Source: Clostridia bacterium
GTDB lineage: Bacteria > Bacillota > Clostridia > Oscillospirales > CAG-382
Length of the DNA: 44,461 nucleotides
NCBI GenBank assembly: GCA_017397805.1
Contig: JAFQHW010000030.1
Location: forward strand, 1 to 44,461
Direction of reading: 5' to 3'
The position numbers and the translations under genes are program-made. The notes under the pieces were generated by a model. That model did no database searches, was not told where the DNA came from, and saw only the letters and a list, made by a program, of their open reading frames with translations. Below, in pieces: positions 5,183 to 10,342 of the stretch (the stretch's first letter is position 1; each line of letters begins with the position of its first letter).

Positions 5183-5216
5183 AGGGGCGGTAAAACCGAT
5201 GGTTTTTACCGCCCCT
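5183..5216. repeat. Hairpin repeat copy 1 (34 nt), terminator-like
   Basis: Strong stem AGGGGCGGTAAAA/TTTTTACCGCCCCT with a short loop. It is repeated without change at 5444-5477, 261 bp away. It lies between convergent genes, so it probably terminates ktrBA. Confidence 0.85.
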
Positions 5217-5443: not shown

Positions 5444-5477
5444 AGGGGCGGTAAAACCGATGGTTTTTACCGCCCCT
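5444..5477. repeat. Hairpin repeat copy 2 (34 nt), terminator-like
   Basis: Identical to 5183-5216. It lies 6 bp past the stop of the minus-strand acyl-CoA ligase fusion and probably serves as its terminator. Confidence 0.85.
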
Positions 5478-5483
5478 TAAAAA

Positions 5484-7943
5484 TTACTTTTTCAGTCCCA
5501 GTCTGTCAACGGACTCGTCACGCATTTTGTATTTGAGTATCTTGCCCGCCGCGTTCATGGGGAACTCGTCTACAAACAAGAAATATCTGGGCACCTTATG
5601 TCTTGCGATGGATGCGTTTCCGAACTCCTTCATCTCCGCTTCGTCGGCGGTTTCGCCTTTGTGGAGAATAACCCAAGCACAGCATTCCTCGCCGTACTTT
5701 TCGTCGGGCACACCTACCACCTGAACGTCACGAACCTTAGGGTTCGTCAGATAAAACTCCTCGATTTCGCGGGGGTAGAGGTTCTCACCGCCGCGGATTA
5801 TCATATCCTTAAGACGGCCCGTAACCTTGTAATATCCGTCGTGGGTACGCATACAAATATCACCCGAATGGAGCCAGCCGTCACTGTCTATAGCTTGCGC
5901 GGTAGCTTCGGGCATCTTGTAATACCCTTTCATAATGTTAAACCCGCGTGCTACGAACTCGCCGCTTTCGCCGTCGGGAAGCTCGTTACCCGTTTCGGGG
6001 TCGATAATCTTGCATTCAACACCGGGGAAGGCGCTGCCAACGGTCTCAACACGGTGGTCAAGGTCCTCGTTTACCTCGCCCATAGTGCAACCGGGGGAGG
6101 CCTCCGTTTGTCCGTACACGGAAATGATCTCACGCATATTCATCTCAACGGAAGCGCGGCGCATAAGGTCTGCGGGGCAGTTTGCACCCGCCATAATGCC
6201 CGTTCTCATATAGGAGAAGTCGGTCTTTGCAAAATCGGGATGACCGAACATGGCAATAAACATGGTAGGAACGCCGTTAAAGCAGGTGATACGCTCGTCG
6301 TTTACGCAAGCAAGGGAGGATTTGGGTGAGAAATACGGAATAGGACAAAGGGTGCCGCCGTGAGTCATCATAGAGGTCATCGAAAGCACCATGCCGAAGC
6401 AATGGAACATAGGCACCTGAATCATCATACGGTCGGCGGTGGAAAGATCCATTCTGTCGCCGATGGTCTTGCCGTTGTTTACGATGTTGCGGTGGGTGAG
6501 CATAACACCCTTGGGAAAGCCCGTAGTACCTGACGTGTACTGCATATTACATACGTCGTCGGGTTTTACCAGAGAAGCTCTTCTGCGAACTTCTTCACGG
6601 GGGACAAGCTCGGAACGGGAAAGCATCTGTTCCCAAGTAAGGCAGCCGTCCATATTGAAGCCTACCGTTACCACGTTACGAAGGAAGGGCAGGTTCTTTG
6701 AATACAAGGGGGCACCCGGCTTGATGCCTTTAAGTTCGGGACACAGCTCCTCGATGATTTCCTTATAGTTTATATCTTTGCAATACTCTACCATCACCAG
6801 GGTGTGAGTATCGGACTGCTTAAGCAAATATTCTATCTCGTGAATCTTATACGCAGTGTTAACCGTAACCAAAACCGCACCGATCTTAGTGGTTGCCCAG
6901 AAGGTAATAAACCACTGGGGCACGTTGGTTGCCCAAATTGCAACGTGGTCGCCCGCTTTTACGCCGAGAGAGATCAAAGCGGCGGCACATTCGTCCACGT
7001 CGCGGCGGAACTGCTCGTAGGTTCTGGTGTAGTCCAAGGTGGGATATTTAAAAGCATACTGGTCGGGATAAGTATTCGCCATGGTGTCCAGCACGTCGGA
7101 GAAGGTGGCTTCGATAACGTCGTACTTCTTCCATACGAAGGTGCCCGTCTTGGCGCGGTTATAATACTTGCCCTCTTTGGACTTTTTGTTGCGGCTTAAA
7201 GAGGAAATATAGTTCTTAAAGTGGGTAAGCACTATATCCGCGTCGCTTATCTCTTCGTTCCAAGCGGCGCAGATGAACCCGTCGTAATTCAAAGACGAAA
7301 GGGCACCCAATAATTTTTGAACGTCCAAATCACCCTCGCCTATCAAAACCGTCTTTCCGTCCTTCATATCGCCGAGGCGGACGTATTTGATGTACGCGCC
7401 AAGGTTTTTAATGGTGGTCTCGGCACTTTCGCCTGCGGCAAAATAAGTGCCCCTAACGTTCCAGGACGCACCAACCGTTGCAGAAGCAAAATGATTGATA
7501 ATGCCTATGACTTTTTCGGTGTCGGAGAGGAAGCCCACCGTTTCAAACAAAACGCTAACGTCAGCCGACTCGGCACGCTTGATGGCTTTTGCCAGCTTGC
7601 CGTTCAAAACCTCAAAGGAAACTTCGTTTTCTGCGTAAACTATAACGTTTTCAACGCCCGAAGCCGCCGCCATATCCACGTATTTTTCAATAATTTCCGC
7701 CGTAGCTTCTTCGCTGTCGATTGGCGCGGGGATACGGAGAGCAGAAACGGAAAGGTTTCTGTTTTTAAGCTTTCTTTTTGCGTCTGCAACGCGCTCGCGG
7801 CGCAAAATGCTGTCGTGATGCGCGTTCCTTTCCTTTATGGCATCGTATATCTCAAAGCCTTGAAATCCGTAGTCGTAGGCATAACGGCAGATGTCCAGAA
7901 AAGAAGCTCGACTTACGTTTTTAGTCGAAAACACTATCTTCAT
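5484..7943 (-). CDS. TIM-barrel / acyl-CoA ligase fusion protein
   Basis: 819 aa. Residues about 1-250 resemble a sugar-phosphate isomerase/epimerase (xylose-isomerase-like) TIM barrel. Residues about 270-819 are a full ATP-dependent acyl-CoA synthetase (AMP-binding, FadD/AcsM-like): P-loop YTSGTTGFPKG near 469, YGQTEASP near 610, HSGD and GRLKDMIIRGGENLYP near 692-725, and catalytic Lys in AAGKILKYK near 801. The ligase half therefore looks active. In the barrel, a glutamate (FETVGF) remains, but the D-x-x-H and H-x-D metal ligands appear replaced (SWNV, VRLGD). The start at 7943 is set by GAGGAGG; that site also encodes the last residues of the upstream gene, whose stop is 1 bp away, indicating translational coupling. 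The substrate is unknown; it is the last gene of the T-box operon. Confidence 0.88.
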   Translation of the reverse strand: MKIVFSTKNVSRASFLDICRYAYDYGFQGFEIYDAIKERNAHHDSILRRERVADAKRKLKNRNLSVSALRIPAPIDSEEATAEIIEKYVDMAAASGVENVIVYAENEVSFEVLNGKLAKAIKRAESADVSVLFETVGFLSDTEKVIGIINHFASATVGASWNVRGTYFAAGESAETTIKNLGAYIKYVRLGDMKDGKTVLIGEGDLDVQKLLGALSSLNYDGFICAAWNEEISDADIVLTHFKNYISSLSRNKKSKEGKYYNRAKTGTFVWKKYDVIEATFSDVLDTMANTYPDQYAFKYPTLDYTRTYEQFRRDVDECAAALISLGVKAGDHVAIWATNVPQWFITFWATTKIGAVLVTVNTAYKIHEIEYLLKQSDTHTLVMVEYCKDINYKEIIEELCPELKGIKPGAPLYSKNLPFLRNVVTVGFNMDGCLTWEQMLSRSELVPREEVRRRASLVKPDDVCNMQYTSGTTGFPKGVMLTHRNIVNNGKTIGDRMDLSTADRMMIQVPMFHCFGMVLSMTSMMTHGGTLCPIPYFSPKSSLACVNDERITCFNGVPTMFIAMFGHPDFAKTDFSYMRTGIMAGANCPADLMRRASVEMNMREIISVYGQTEASPGCTMGEVNEDLDHRVETVGSAFPGVECKIIDPETGNELPDGESGEFVARGFNIMKGYYKMPEATAQAIDSDGWLHSGDICMRTHDGYYKVTGRLKDMIIRGGENLYPREIEEFYLTNPKVRDVQVVGVPDEKYGEECCAWVILHKGETADEAEMKEFGNASIARHKVPRYFLFVDEFPMNAAGKILKYKMRDESVDRLGLKK

Positions 7944-7944
7944 A

Positions 7945-9333
7945 TTATGCCTCCTCAAATACTATCTTGTTCAAAGCGTTGATATAAGCTCTTATGCTTG
8001 CGGCAACTATATCTGTAGAGGTGCCGTTGCCTGAATAAAGCTTGCCGCCGTTGCGAAGTCTTACAAGAGCAGAACCCAACGCTTCCTTACCTTCCGTTAC
8101 GGATTGCACCTGAAAATCGTCCAATTCGTAGTGGTGACCGATGCACTGCTCGATGGCGCGGAAAGCGGAATCGATAGGGCCGTCACCGTCACTTACACCG
8201 CAGATTATCTCGTCGTTGCACTTTAAGGTTACCTGCGACATAGAGCTGGATACGTTGCTGCTGGTGGTGGTGTAGGTTTCAAAGTGATAAGTGGAGGGCG
8301 CTTGCATGGCAGAGCTTGCAATAACAGCCTCAAACTCTTTATAGCCAACGGTACCCTTCTTTTCGCAAACGCGCTTTAAAGCCTTATGTACGTTGCCCAC
8401 GTCAGAATCGGAAAGGTCGTAGCCCAAAACGCTTGCCGCCTGTGCTACCTGTGCAATGGTGCTGTCGGCATCAAGCAAAAGCTTCTTCTTTTCGCTGACG
8501 GTGCTTTCGTTTTCGTATGCCTCGTGGCTTATCTTTGAGAGCATATCGTCAATGCTTGCGTGTATCTTCGTGTTGTCAAGACCTATTTCCGCATCTATCT
8601 TGCCGGAGCAAACCTTCATGGCATCGGCTATCTTGCCCGTCAAAAGCACGTCTTTGCCCGCCATGGCGCATTTGATACCGTCTGCTCCCTTGGCGATAGC
8701 GGCAACGGCAGATGCTACTGCCATATTGATACCGTCGGAAACCTGAACGTAAACGGGCACGTTCACCGCCGCCTTAACGGCTTCGGTAAGTGCGGCAATC
8801 TCTTCGGGGGCGGAAACTCCCGCATCGTCGCAAACGGTTATAACCGTAGCGCCGTTGGCAACGGCTTCCTTAGCGGCAGTAATAATAAAGTCAAGCTCTG
8901 CGCGGGTAGCGTCAAGAGCAGAAAACTCTACGTCATCGCAAAGTCCCTTTGCCGCCTTAACAAGCTCCCCGATTTTCGCCAGCATTTTATCTGCCTTAAC
9001 GTGGTAAACGTACTCCATCTGAACGGTGGAAACGGGAAGCTCTACCTGCAGACGGGGATTCTTTGCCATCTTTACGGATTCCCACGCATCAACCGCGGAT
9101 GCAACCGTGGAGCCTACGGAGATGGCAACAACTGCGTTTTGAACGTTCTGTGCGATGGTCTTATATATAATAGTGTCCTCACGAACAGACTTTATTGCAG
9201 GTAATTCAACCGCATCCGCTCCGATGGCGTCTGCACAGTTGGCAATAGCGGATTTTTCACGGAAGAGCAAGGATACTGCTCTGTCCTCGGAAAGCTTTTT
9301 AAGCGTAATATCGGTAACGTTTATTTTTCTCAT
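7945..9333 (-). CDS. LeuA-like protein lacking isopropylmalate synthase catalytic residues
   Basis: 462 aa. The N-terminal part follows the HMGL/isopropylmalate synthase barrel, and the C-terminal part (about 340-462) is a good LeuA allosteric domain (SDGDGPIDSAFRAIEQ, then YSGNGTSTDIVAASIRAY). The signature TTLRDGEQ is replaced by ITLKKLSEDRA, removing the catalytic Arg and metal Asp. The HxHND metal site is replaced by VYVQVSDG, and no GERAGN motif is seen. It is therefore unlikely to condense acetyl-CoA with a 2-oxoacid. Known LeuA domains of this type bind leucine, so a sensor or scaffold role is my inference. ATG 9333 has AAAGGGG upstream; an in-frame TTG at 9351 is less likely. It is the second gene of the operon, 34 bp after the MaoC-like gene. 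Confidence 0.82.
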   Translation of the reverse strand: MRKINVTDITLKKLSEDRAVSLLFREKSAIANCADAIGADAVELPAIKSVREDTIIYKTIAQNVQNAVVAISVGSTVASAVDAWESVKMAKNPRLQVELPVSTVQMEYVYHVKADKMLAKIGELVKAAKGLCDDVEFSALDATRAELDFIITAAKEAVANGATVITVCDDAGVSAPEEIAALTEAVKAAVNVPVYVQVSDGINMAVASAVAAIAKGADGIKCAMAGKDVLLTGKIADAMKVCSGKIDAEIGLDNTKIHASIDDMLSKISHEAYENESTVSEKKKLLLDADSTIAQVAQAASVLGYDLSDSDVGNVHKALKRVCEKKGTVGYKEFEAVIASSAMQAPSTYHFETYTTTSSNVSSSMSQVTLKCNDEIICGVSDGDGPIDSAFRAIEQCIGHHYELDDFQVQSVTEGKEALGSALVRLRNGGKLYSGNGTSTDIVAASIRAYINALNKIVFEEA

Positions 9334-9367
9334 TTTAAAAACCCCTTTCAATTAACGGTTCAATATA

Positions 9368-9805
9368 TTATATATTTACGGTTTTGCATTTTACTATGGC
9401 TTCGGTTACGTCTTTAAGTACCAGCTCGCCCTTTTGGTTGTAAACGTCGATGGAAACTTCAACAAGTCCGTTTCGTTCACTTCGTTTTACAAGCTTGGTT
9501 ATGGTGGCCTTGCCCGTCAGAACGTCGTCGGCAAATACAGGCTTTAGCCACTCGATTTTGGTGGATTTCCCCGCAAGCAGCTCGTTGCCGAAAAAATCGA
9601 CCTCAAGATACTTTGCCCAAACCGACATAAACGACATCACTCCCGGCGCGATAAGCTTGCCGAAGGGCGTGCTTTTTGCGTATTCCTCGTGGGTGTGCAG
9701 AGGGATGTTATCGTAATCGCGGGCAAAAGCCAACATCTTTTCCTTTTCAATAAGTGCGGGCTCGGTATCTACCGCCATTCCCAACCTAAGTTCGTCAAAA
9801 TACAT
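9368..9805 (-). CDS. MaoC-like acyl-CoA hydratase (hot-dog fold)
   Basis: 145 aa, typical for a single MaoC-like domain. The (R)-hydratase region is present as D-x-x-x-I-P-L-H-T-H-x-E-x-A, followed by PFGKLIAPG (residues about 25-50), close to the D-x-N-P-x-H-x-D...G family pattern. Such enzymes hydrate 2-enoyl-CoA to 3-hydroxyacyl-CoA, or act on mesaconyl/methylcrotonyl-type CoA esters; substrate is not predictable here. The start at 9805 is supported by AGAGGTG 5 bp upstream; an upstream in-frame start would run into the T-box terminator. It is the first gene of the T-box operon, followed by the LeuA-like and ligase fusion genes. Confidence 0.85.
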   Translation of the reverse strand: MYFDELRLGMAVDTEPALIEKEKMLAFARDYDNIPLHTHEEYAKSTPFGKLIAPGVMSFMSVWAKYLEVDFFGNELLAGKSTKIEWLKPVFADDVLTGKATITKLVKRSERNGLVEVSIDVYNQKGELVLKDVTEAIVKCKTVNI

Positions 9806-9828
9806 CAAAACACCTCTTTTGCTGTTAC

Positions 9829-9867
9829 AAAACAAAAACCGTCCCAAAGCCTTTGCTTTGAGACGGG
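9829..9867 (-). terminator. T-box leader attenuator terminator
   Basis: On the minus strand, CCCGTCTCAAAG pairs with CTTTGGGACGG and is followed by TTTTTGTTTT. It sits just after the T-box sequence and before the MaoC-like gene, as expected for a transcriptional attenuator. Confidence 0.88.
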
Positions 9868-10112
9868 TGATAATAAACACTCGCGGTACCACTCAAATTG
9901 CGGACACGTAATCCGCCACCTCTTCGAAGTCCGACAACTTCTATGCACTGACGTAGCATACACGGAGACCCCTACACACGGAAAGCTTCAGGTCCTCGGC
10001 TCGGAAGTGAGAGGACGAGGATATGCAACGCGCTGATTCGCACCAACCATCAGCTCTCTGTGCCGTTCTTCTCCAAGACCATTCTTCGTCATAGCCTTTA
10101 CTATTAAATTTG
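9829..10112 (-). promoter_or_regulatory. T-box leader (tRNA-sensing riboswitch)
   Basis: The conserved T-box GAGTGGTACCGCGAG lies at 9880-9895 (minus strand). Upstream come a stem III-like hairpin (GCGGA/TCCGC), and stem I with AGAGAG and the GATGGTTGGTGCGAATC distal hairpin. The stem I base can pair GGTCTT with AGGACC. After the GAA of the specifier loop the sequence reads GCTTT: counting one spacer base, as in glyQS and tyrS leaders, gives CUU (Leu); reading directly gives GCU (Ala). Uncharged tRNA would favour antitermination and expression of the three downstream genes. I favour leucine because of the LeuA-like gene, but the codon is not proven. Confidence 0.9.
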
Positions 10113-10118
10113 CTATGG

Positions 10119-10147
10119 ATTTTAGCACAAGGAACCCCCGTTGTCAA
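10119..10147 (-). promoter_or_regulatory. Promoter of the T-box operon
   Basis: Minus strand TTGACA-N17-TAAAAT, which puts the transcription start just before the T-box stem I. Confidence 0.78.
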
Positions 10148-10217
10148 GAGCTTTTTTGAAAAAATTTGCAAAAAACTCGGCAAAAATCAAAAAAATTCAC
10201 CTTCCGAACCCAATCCC

Positions 10218-10258
10218 ATGTAACAAAAGTGCCGATTCCGGCAAAAATTTTAGATGGA
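10218..10258 (+). repeat. 41-bp direct repeat copy 1 upstream of ATPase gene
   Basis: Begins ATGTAACAAAAGTGCCG and ends TAGATGGA. It contains the small dyad TGCCGA/CGGCA. A near-identical copy starts 76 bp later; the two frame the promoter at 10263-10291. Confidence 0.85.
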
Positions 10259-10262
10259 AAGC

Positions 10263-10291
10263 TTGACATTCTCTATATTTCGTTATACAAT
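10263..10291 (+). promoter_or_regulatory. Promoter of first DUF4143 ATPase gene
   Basis: TTGACA-N17-TACAAT lying exactly between the two 41-bp repeats. The predicted transcript start falls inside repeat copy 2, so a repeat-binding protein could block it. Confidence 0.8.
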
Positions 10292-10293
10292 GT

Positions 10294-10334
10294 ATGTAAC
10301 AAAAGTGCCGATTTCGGCAAAAATATTAGATGGA
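10294..10334 (+). repeat. 41-bp direct repeat copy 2
   Basis: Differs from copy 1 at only a few positions (GATTTCGGC instead of GATTCCGGC, and ATATTAG instead of TTTTAG). It ends within the GGAGG ribosome binding site of the ATPase gene. Confidence 0.85.
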
Positions 10335-10342
10335 GGTGCGTT

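Follow-up and report, generated by a model that had tools for sequence, protein, structure and literature searches.

What would a leucine-specific RNA switch do in front of an acyl-CoA ligase and a 2-isopropylmalate synthase (LeuA) homolog that has lost its catalytic residues? The question is raised by an operon in a stretch of 44,461 nucleotides from a Clostridia bacterium of the Oscillospirales (GenBank assembly GCA_017397805.1, contig JAFQHW010000030.1, positions 1 to 44,461; hereafter, the window). The operon region, the minus strand of 5484-10150, carries a promoter-like site, a leader, a terminator hairpin, and three genes. We put at roughly three in four the probability that the operon serves to make leucine from isovalerate, which its ligase would activate and a 2-oxoacid:ferredoxin oxidoreductase (VorBAG) and a branched-chain aminotransferase would carry onward, with the LeuA-like protein (dead LeuA) as a leucine-binding regulatory partner of the ligase. 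The elements of the operon, in the order of transcription, are:

10142..10147, minus strand: predicted promoter -35 (TTGACA), letters read directly, with a 17-nt spacer to the -10
10119..10124, minus strand: predicted promoter -10 (TAAAAT), letters read directly
9856..10101, minus strand: T-box leader RNA (RF00230, 86.0 bits, E 4.9e-19, model 1-219)
10009..10011, minus strand: specifier codon CUC (leucine), from the covariance-model alignment; relatives read likewise
9882..9891, minus strand: T-box antiterminator core TGGTACCGCG, from the covariance-model alignment
9840..9866, minus strand: terminator hairpin, then a U run, from the sequence; the hairpin is seen in the computed fold
9368..9805, minus strand: MaoC-like hydratase, accessory (PF01575 44 bits; 1q6w 56 bits)
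7945..9333, minus strand: dead LeuA, 462 aa, likely leucine sensor (PF00682 + PF08502; catalytic residues lost; relatives in 80 loci)
5484..7943, minus strand: TIM-barrel/acyl-CoA ligase fusion, 819 aa, likely isovalerate--CoA ligase (Pfam; conserved order)

An earlier note on this DNA described a complete T-box leader before these genes, and the covariance-model search bears this out, with a match that covers all 219 positions of RF00230 and includes both the specifier codon (CUC) and a UGGN antiterminator core (TGGTACCGCG). The score lies just below the RF00230 gathering score of 93, which is why a gathering scan of the window with Rfam gave no entry. In four relatives (L016, L019, L021, and L084; L and G numbers are our handles for loci and genomes), the leader of the corresponding gene scores between 92.8 and 133.8 bits, and it exceeds 93 in three of them. 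A chance match was considered and rejected, given the model match, the leaders of the relatives, and the presence of a T-box core before most LeuA-like open reading frames (ORFs). The specifier reads leucine, as it does in relatives, and is thus not that of an unrelated amino acid.

The genes that follow are closely packed, and the ORF coordinates agree with the gaps given in the earlier note (stop codons counted, 34 bp from MaoC to the LeuA-like gene and 1 bp from there to the fusion). Conservation was judged from the best 80 loci of 101 relatives, found by a scan of genome contigs. All 80 are from metagenome-assembled genomes titled Clostridia, Clostridiales, or Oscillospiraceae bacterium, and the titles that name a source all name a ruminant. 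The 70 loci on stretches of at least 7 kb were annotated, and 26 longer stretches from further genomes with dead LeuA form a second sample. A TIM domain lies 3′ of the LeuA-like gene in 80 of 80 loci (no more than 20 nt from its stop in 77), the ligase part lies downstream in 79 (in L007 the contig stops before the ligase), and the trio of LeuA-like, TIM, and ligase parts occurs in all 26 longer stretches. Across the 80 loci, identity is mostly 90%-96% in the ligase part (L084 has 85%, and values fall further in the divergent genomes of the second sample) and 54%-79% in the LeuA-like protein.

The window MaoC does carry its motif (PF01575 is above cut-off), but a MaoC ORF is present in only seven of the 70 annotated stretches (nine of 80 loci by tblastn, two of these as partial matches), its position varies, and it adjoins the LeuA-like gene only sometimes. 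MaoC as a core partner was rejected on these counts. Of the three-gene order proposed earlier, the pair of LeuA-like gene and fusion therefore stands as the conserved unit, and MaoC becomes an occasional, optional companion. The LeuA-like gene is also no chance reading frame: 6,305 of 7,998 scored candidates are homologs of its protein at E ≤ 0.001. Among the 120 matches listed, length is 462-505 aa and identity 77%-100%; many of the others may be ordinary LeuA.

Is the LeuA-like protein really dead? Its two recognizable parts are:

8656..9333, minus strand: degenerate HMGL-like barrel of dead LeuA (residues 1-226; RDG, HxH, and NGxGER lost)
7963..8340, minus strand: LeuA_dimer (leucine-binding) domain of dead LeuA (residues 332-457, 104 bits; GDGPID and STDI kept)

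Both domains score above their Pfam cut-offs (HMGL-like 91 bits, LeuA_dimer 104 bits), and the protein does not reach the NCBIfam equivalog cut-off for LeuA (best 234.5 vs. 532). The loss of catalytic residues, already noticed in the window, extends to the whole group. An alignment of 20 diverse members with seven true LeuA from relatives shows that the metal-binding Asp of RDG, the first His, GER, and the linker segment are missing from every member, while the second His and the Asn are each lost in 19. Of 103 dead-LeuA locus records (a few genomes were entered twice), not one shows HCH or an RDG close to its start, and 92 have the regulatory motif G[DN]GP[IV]D. An ordinary LeuA with sequence errors was rejected, because RDG and HCH are absent in every record and the frame is open at near-constant length (456-469 aa among the records listed). 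The protein would not be expected to make isopropylmalate.

The two halves of the protein have diverged to different degrees. Mean identity among dead LeuA is 69.5% in the regulatory domain versus 49.5% in the barrel, and the regulatory domain is the more alike in 190 of 190 pairs; in true LeuA the values are 51.4% versus 66.6%, with the regulatory domain higher in 0 of 21 pairs. Given this reversal, selection seems to keep the sensor half. HisZ descends from a dead HisRS paralog, and a protein with its catalytic residues lost and its ligand-binding domain retained is as expected of a HisZ-like regulatory subunit. It is likely that dead LeuA is kept as a leucine-binding regulatory partner of the ligase, although its control of the ligase, and any complex between the two, are predictions. 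In true LeuA, the regulatory domain binds leucine in pockets at the dimer interface, as passages of PMC11057210 describe. A LeuA-like protein with 38% identity is also encoded outside the class, elsewhere in the phylum (G272:C2:63545-64951).

The fusion protein likewise has two parts:

7179..7943, minus strand: xylose-isomerase-like TIM domain (PF01261 54 bits; three of four presumed metal-ligand positions changed)
5487..7178, minus strand: acyl-CoA ligase domain (PF00501 317 bits, PF13193 60 bits; 8weu 272 bits)

All of its Pfam domains (AP_endonuc_2 54, AMP-binding 317, and AMP-binding_C 60 bits) are above cut-off, in line with the intact ligase motifs reported earlier. The TIM half appears to tell a story similar to that of the dead LeuA barrel. 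At four positions that are presumed metal ligands in this family, the divergent members L095, L096, L098, L100, and L101 have Glu, Asp, His, and Glu; the last three are Asn, Arg, and Ala in the window. The best solved-structure match of the ligase, the fatty-acyl/feruloyl enzyme 8weu (272 bits), is too far away to name its acid.

The leaders may name it. T-box cores were counted before ORFs with at least 350 bp upstream in the annotated loci, and were found before 63 of 67 LeuA-like ORFs, 47 of 48 ORFs of a second ligase type (an HTH-cupin-ligase fusion), and nine of nine PaaK ORFs; this core-motif scan found none before 23 amidohydrolase ORFs. Cores also precede two of seven MaoC, one of nine ACT-lactamase, and one of 18 ATPase ORFs. 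In the ACT-lactamase case the core belongs to the MaoC leader of L020, and in the ATPase case it reads like ligase coding sequence, so single core-motif matches can be chance. Specifiers were called with three context patterns in which the codon letters were left free (two earlier callers are not counted, as their anchors were unsuitable and many leaders were uncalled or had several candidates). Before LeuA-like ORFs (n = 63), the specifier is CTC in 61, CTG in one, and undecided in one, which the model alignment reads as CUC. Before HTH-cupin ligases (n = 48, including one with <350 bp upstream), it is ATC (Ile) in 33, GTA (Val) in 14, and undecided in one; it is TTC (Phe) before PaaK in nine of nine cases and CTC before MaoC in two of two. 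Ten leaders aligned to the Rfam model and read by eye comprise five Leu, three Ile, and two Val. A Leu specifier was also read by eye in 20 of the 26 longer stretches; in L096, L100, L104, L120, L127, and L130 there was no leader by pattern or the codon was unread.

A tree was built from 47 of the 48 HTH-cupin ligases, with one short ORF dropped; the leader left undecided by the script was taken as ATC, the choice here being limited to ATC and GTA. In this tree, a single branch with support 100/100 parts the 33 Ile from the 14 Val proteins. The genome of the window itself has an Ile-type HTH-cupin ligase behind a T-box (L107:1008-4182, on contig C3), and a second MaoC, 81% identical to that of the window, lies just upstream of this T-box and ligase. 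The ligase part only of this protein (residues 222-762, not the HTH-cupin) is 55.3% identical (299/541) to PDB 3ETC, Macs of Methanosarcina acetivorans, which prefers 2-methylbutyrate according to passages of PMC10455477. Because this is the isoleucine acid, the match is an outside check of the specifier rule for the Ile-type ligase. By this rule, the acid of a ligase would be the precursor of the amino acid that the specifier encodes. By the same logic, the sister ligases would take 2-methylbutyrate (Ile), isobutyrate (Val), and phenylacetate (Phe).

Some related arrangements should be recorded here. HTH-cupin ligases occur as pairs, with an Ile and a Val T-box, in L018, L021, L037, L038, L051, L054, L057, L078, and L081, where they adjoin a ParA-like ATPase and, in most loci, VorB. 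PaaK with an ACT-pair protein lies near the operon in L019, L032, L045, L053, L058, L105, L106, L108, and L132, with Phe specifiers in the PaaK leaders where these were read. In L002 (G000:C9:21018-21275), a T-box precedes a tryptophan-synthase-beta-like gene; the specifier looks by eye to be UGG, which perhaps points to tryptophan made from indole.

Dead LeuA and true LeuC are nearly exclusive. In 197 genomes of the order, that of the window included (dead LeuA at E ≤ 1e-40, LeuC above cut-off), dead LeuA is present in 42 (two by partial matches) and LeuC in 110: one genome has both, 41 have dead LeuA only, 109 LeuC only, and 46 neither (Fisher p = 8.6e-17, in a test whose related genomes are not independent). 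Dead LeuA is present in 13 families, and by a hand tally 10 of these include genomes with LeuC as well. Among 59 relatives, with LeuC counted as frames under 500 aa, none has both, 21 have dead LeuA, 27 LeuC, and 11 neither (p = 3.0e-8). Phylum-wide, dead LeuA is rare (two of 299 sampled genomes, one of them that of the window). In the window's genome, searches for LeuA, LeuC, IlvC, and IlvD found no second LeuA-like match, no IlvD, no IlvC (22 bits), and no LeuC save one aconitase-size frame of 754 aa.

Where are the later steps? In L063, L067, L101, L123, and L130, the genes for VorB, VorA, VorG, and the aminotransferase lie, in that order, directly 5′ of the LeuA-like gene and the fusion, so that ligase, oxidoreductase, and aminotransferase form one cluster (VorB 557 bits vs. 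a cut-off of 399; branched-chain aminotransferase 490 bits vs. 307). In L129 and L131, the VorBAG and aminotransferase genes adjoin the operon with their order changed. Five different families are represented by L101, L123, L129, L130, and L131. In G008, G020, and G028, a 2-oxoacid-oxidoreductase-like frame of 1,172-1,192 residues lies 3′ of the ligase, replacing VorBAG; such a frame, ~1,180 residues long, is recorded at loci L095, L097, and L099. In the genome of the window, VorBAG is on another contig than the operon (VorB 534 bits).

Uncharged tRNA makes a T-box leader read through, and we propose that leucine shortage, through uncharged tRNA-Leu, would act on the operon in this way. The ligase would then convert isovalerate excreted by neighbors to isovaleryl-CoA, VorBAG (if it runs in the carboxylating direction) would add CO2 to give 2-ketoisocaproate, and the branched-chain aminotransferase would convert this to leucine, which, bound to dead LeuA, would damp the ligase as feedback. 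The earlier suggestion that the operon activates a branched-chain acid under leucine shortage is supported by gene order and specifier as a prediction, with the qualification that the operon holds the first step only. There is also a broader version, for which the odds seem to us a shade better than even: gut Clostridia may have swapped classical branched-chain pathways for T-box-coded acid ligases (Leu, Ile, Val, and Phe), each with a sensor module, such that a discarded LeuA became a leucine feedback subunit and the specifier labels the substrate.

Several observations weigh against this scheme. VorB is above cut-off in 16 of 21 relatives with dead LeuA versus 19 of 38 others (p = 0.059), and its presence alone proves little because VorB is widespread. 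It was not found above cut-off in five dead-LeuA genomes (G008, G019, G020, G024, and G028), and the core-motif scan of the annotated loci found a T-box core before none of 17 VorB ORFs. The same scan found no leader before four of the 67 LeuA-like ORFs. MaoC has no assigned step in the favored pathway. IlvC and IlvD occur in the same five of the 21 dead-LeuA relatives, where the usual precursor should therefore be available; G121, which is 98% complete, is the sole genome with both dead LeuA and LeuC; and the 46 genomes with neither gene imply that plain leucine auxotrophy may occur in the order. The genome of the window is only 88.7% complete. AlphaFold models had mean pLDDT values of 64.2 and 44.0, too poor to use.

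Could dead LeuA be a new enzyme, its altered barrel catalyzing a different step of the pathway on an acyl-CoA or a keto acid? The invariance of QMEY (105-108) and DATRA (141-145) in 17 sequences of one alignment would fit, but some of these invariant residues differ in more distant members, and such an enzyme would have to work without the Asp, the first His, GER, and the linker (gone in 20/20) and almost always without the second His and the Asn (19/20). As the barrel is also less alike than the regulatory domain, and ligase, oxidoreductase, and aminotransferase already make a complete route, we regard a new enzyme as unlikely. Distinctly unlikely, in our view, is that the isovalerate activated by the ligase is salvaged for membrane lipids with branched chains and not for leucine; a shortage of leucine would then be sensed because isovaleryl-CoA usually derives from this amino acid. 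A short-chain acyl-CoA synthetase of Staphylococcus aureus does support branched-chain fatty acid synthesis (PMC10026030). Such salvage, however, would not lead one to expect the near-exclusive distribution of dead LeuA and LeuC, the VorBAG and aminotransferase neighbors, or the parallel Val and Phe ligases. To our knowledge, phenylacetate is not a usual membrane-lipid primer.

Very improbable is a third account, in which leucine auxotrophs use the operon for an unrelated acid and the leucine T-box is left over from an older leu operon. The frequency of genomes without LeuC and dead LeuA (46/197) does suggest that leucine synthesis may often be lost, but a relic would hardly keep a leucine codon as specifier in 62 of the 63 leaders found before the pair and in 20 of the 26 longer stretches, or have paralogous ligases that match the specifier clade by clade. 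We thus continue to prefer leucine synthesis from isovalerate, with dead LeuA as the probable sensor.

The physiology itself has been described. In the rumen, leucine can be made from isovalerate, isoleucine from 2-methylbutyrate, valine from isobutyrate, and phenylalanine from phenylacetate, according to passages of PMC7356843, which cite Allison and co-workers (1962, 1966) for the isovalerate carboxylation route. These acids correspond to the four specifiers of our leaders (Leu, Ile, Val, and Phe), and passages of PMC10658910 give the same acid origins for isoleucine and leucine in rumen methanogens. No paper naming these genes was found in the open-licence part of the PMC literature (subscription literature was outside the search). 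The operon offers candidate genes for rumen physiology known since the 1960s, and the question becomes testable. If the scheme is true, it would explain why many uncultured gut Clostridia might depend on the acids of their neighbors, the substrate of a ligase could be predicted from the RNA before the gene, and dead LeuA would be a plain example of how a biosynthetic enzyme can be retained for its sensor domain alone. It should be noted that source annotations label these proteins hypothetical, AMP-binding, 2-isopropylmalate synthase, or isopropylmalate synthase regulatory domain protein, and that pathway predictions could be misled by such labels.

Other features lie around the operon. An Amidohydrolase-2 family gene is near the cluster in L067 (11864-12676) and 22 other loci, often directly 3′ of the ligase, and a fusion protein of ACT and metallo-beta-lactamase is near it in nine loci (e.g., L049:15465-16901). 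In the window, a GGGGCGGTAAAACCGATGGTTTTTACCGCCCC hairpin is present twice (~5184-5216 and ~5445-5477), flanking ~230 bp just downstream of the operon, and a direct repeat (gtaacaaaagtgccgatt.cggcaaaaat.ttagatgga) occupies ~10219-10336, before a divergent ATPase gene.

How does the operon compare with known systems? Dead LeuA shares with 2-isopropylmalate synthase the domain order and a LeuA_dimer domain with its motifs, and differs from it in lacking RDG, HxH, NGxGER, and the linker. A parallel is HisZ, the regulatory protein of HisG (PMC9734150): in both cases a dead paralog accompanies the enzyme that opens an amino-acid route and is the proposed carrier of feedback, whereas fold and target differ, and the partnership in the window operon is predicted. 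The leader has the anatomy and leucine specifier of T-box leucine genes (RF00230; Geobacter leuA in passages of PMC2494555), yet precedes an acid ligase and dead LeuA and not leuA; the main text of that survey does not contain the words CoA, phenylacetate, or AMP-dependent. Macs (3ETC) is 55% identical to the Ile-type sister ligase, whereas the leucine-type ligase of the window belongs to another subfamily. Finally, the predicted chemistry (isovalerate, CO2, amination) and the four acids are those of the rumen isovalerate carboxylation route as passages of PMC7356843 present it; that route is known as physiology, with which the present analysis links a gene set, an RNA switch, and a pseudoenzyme.

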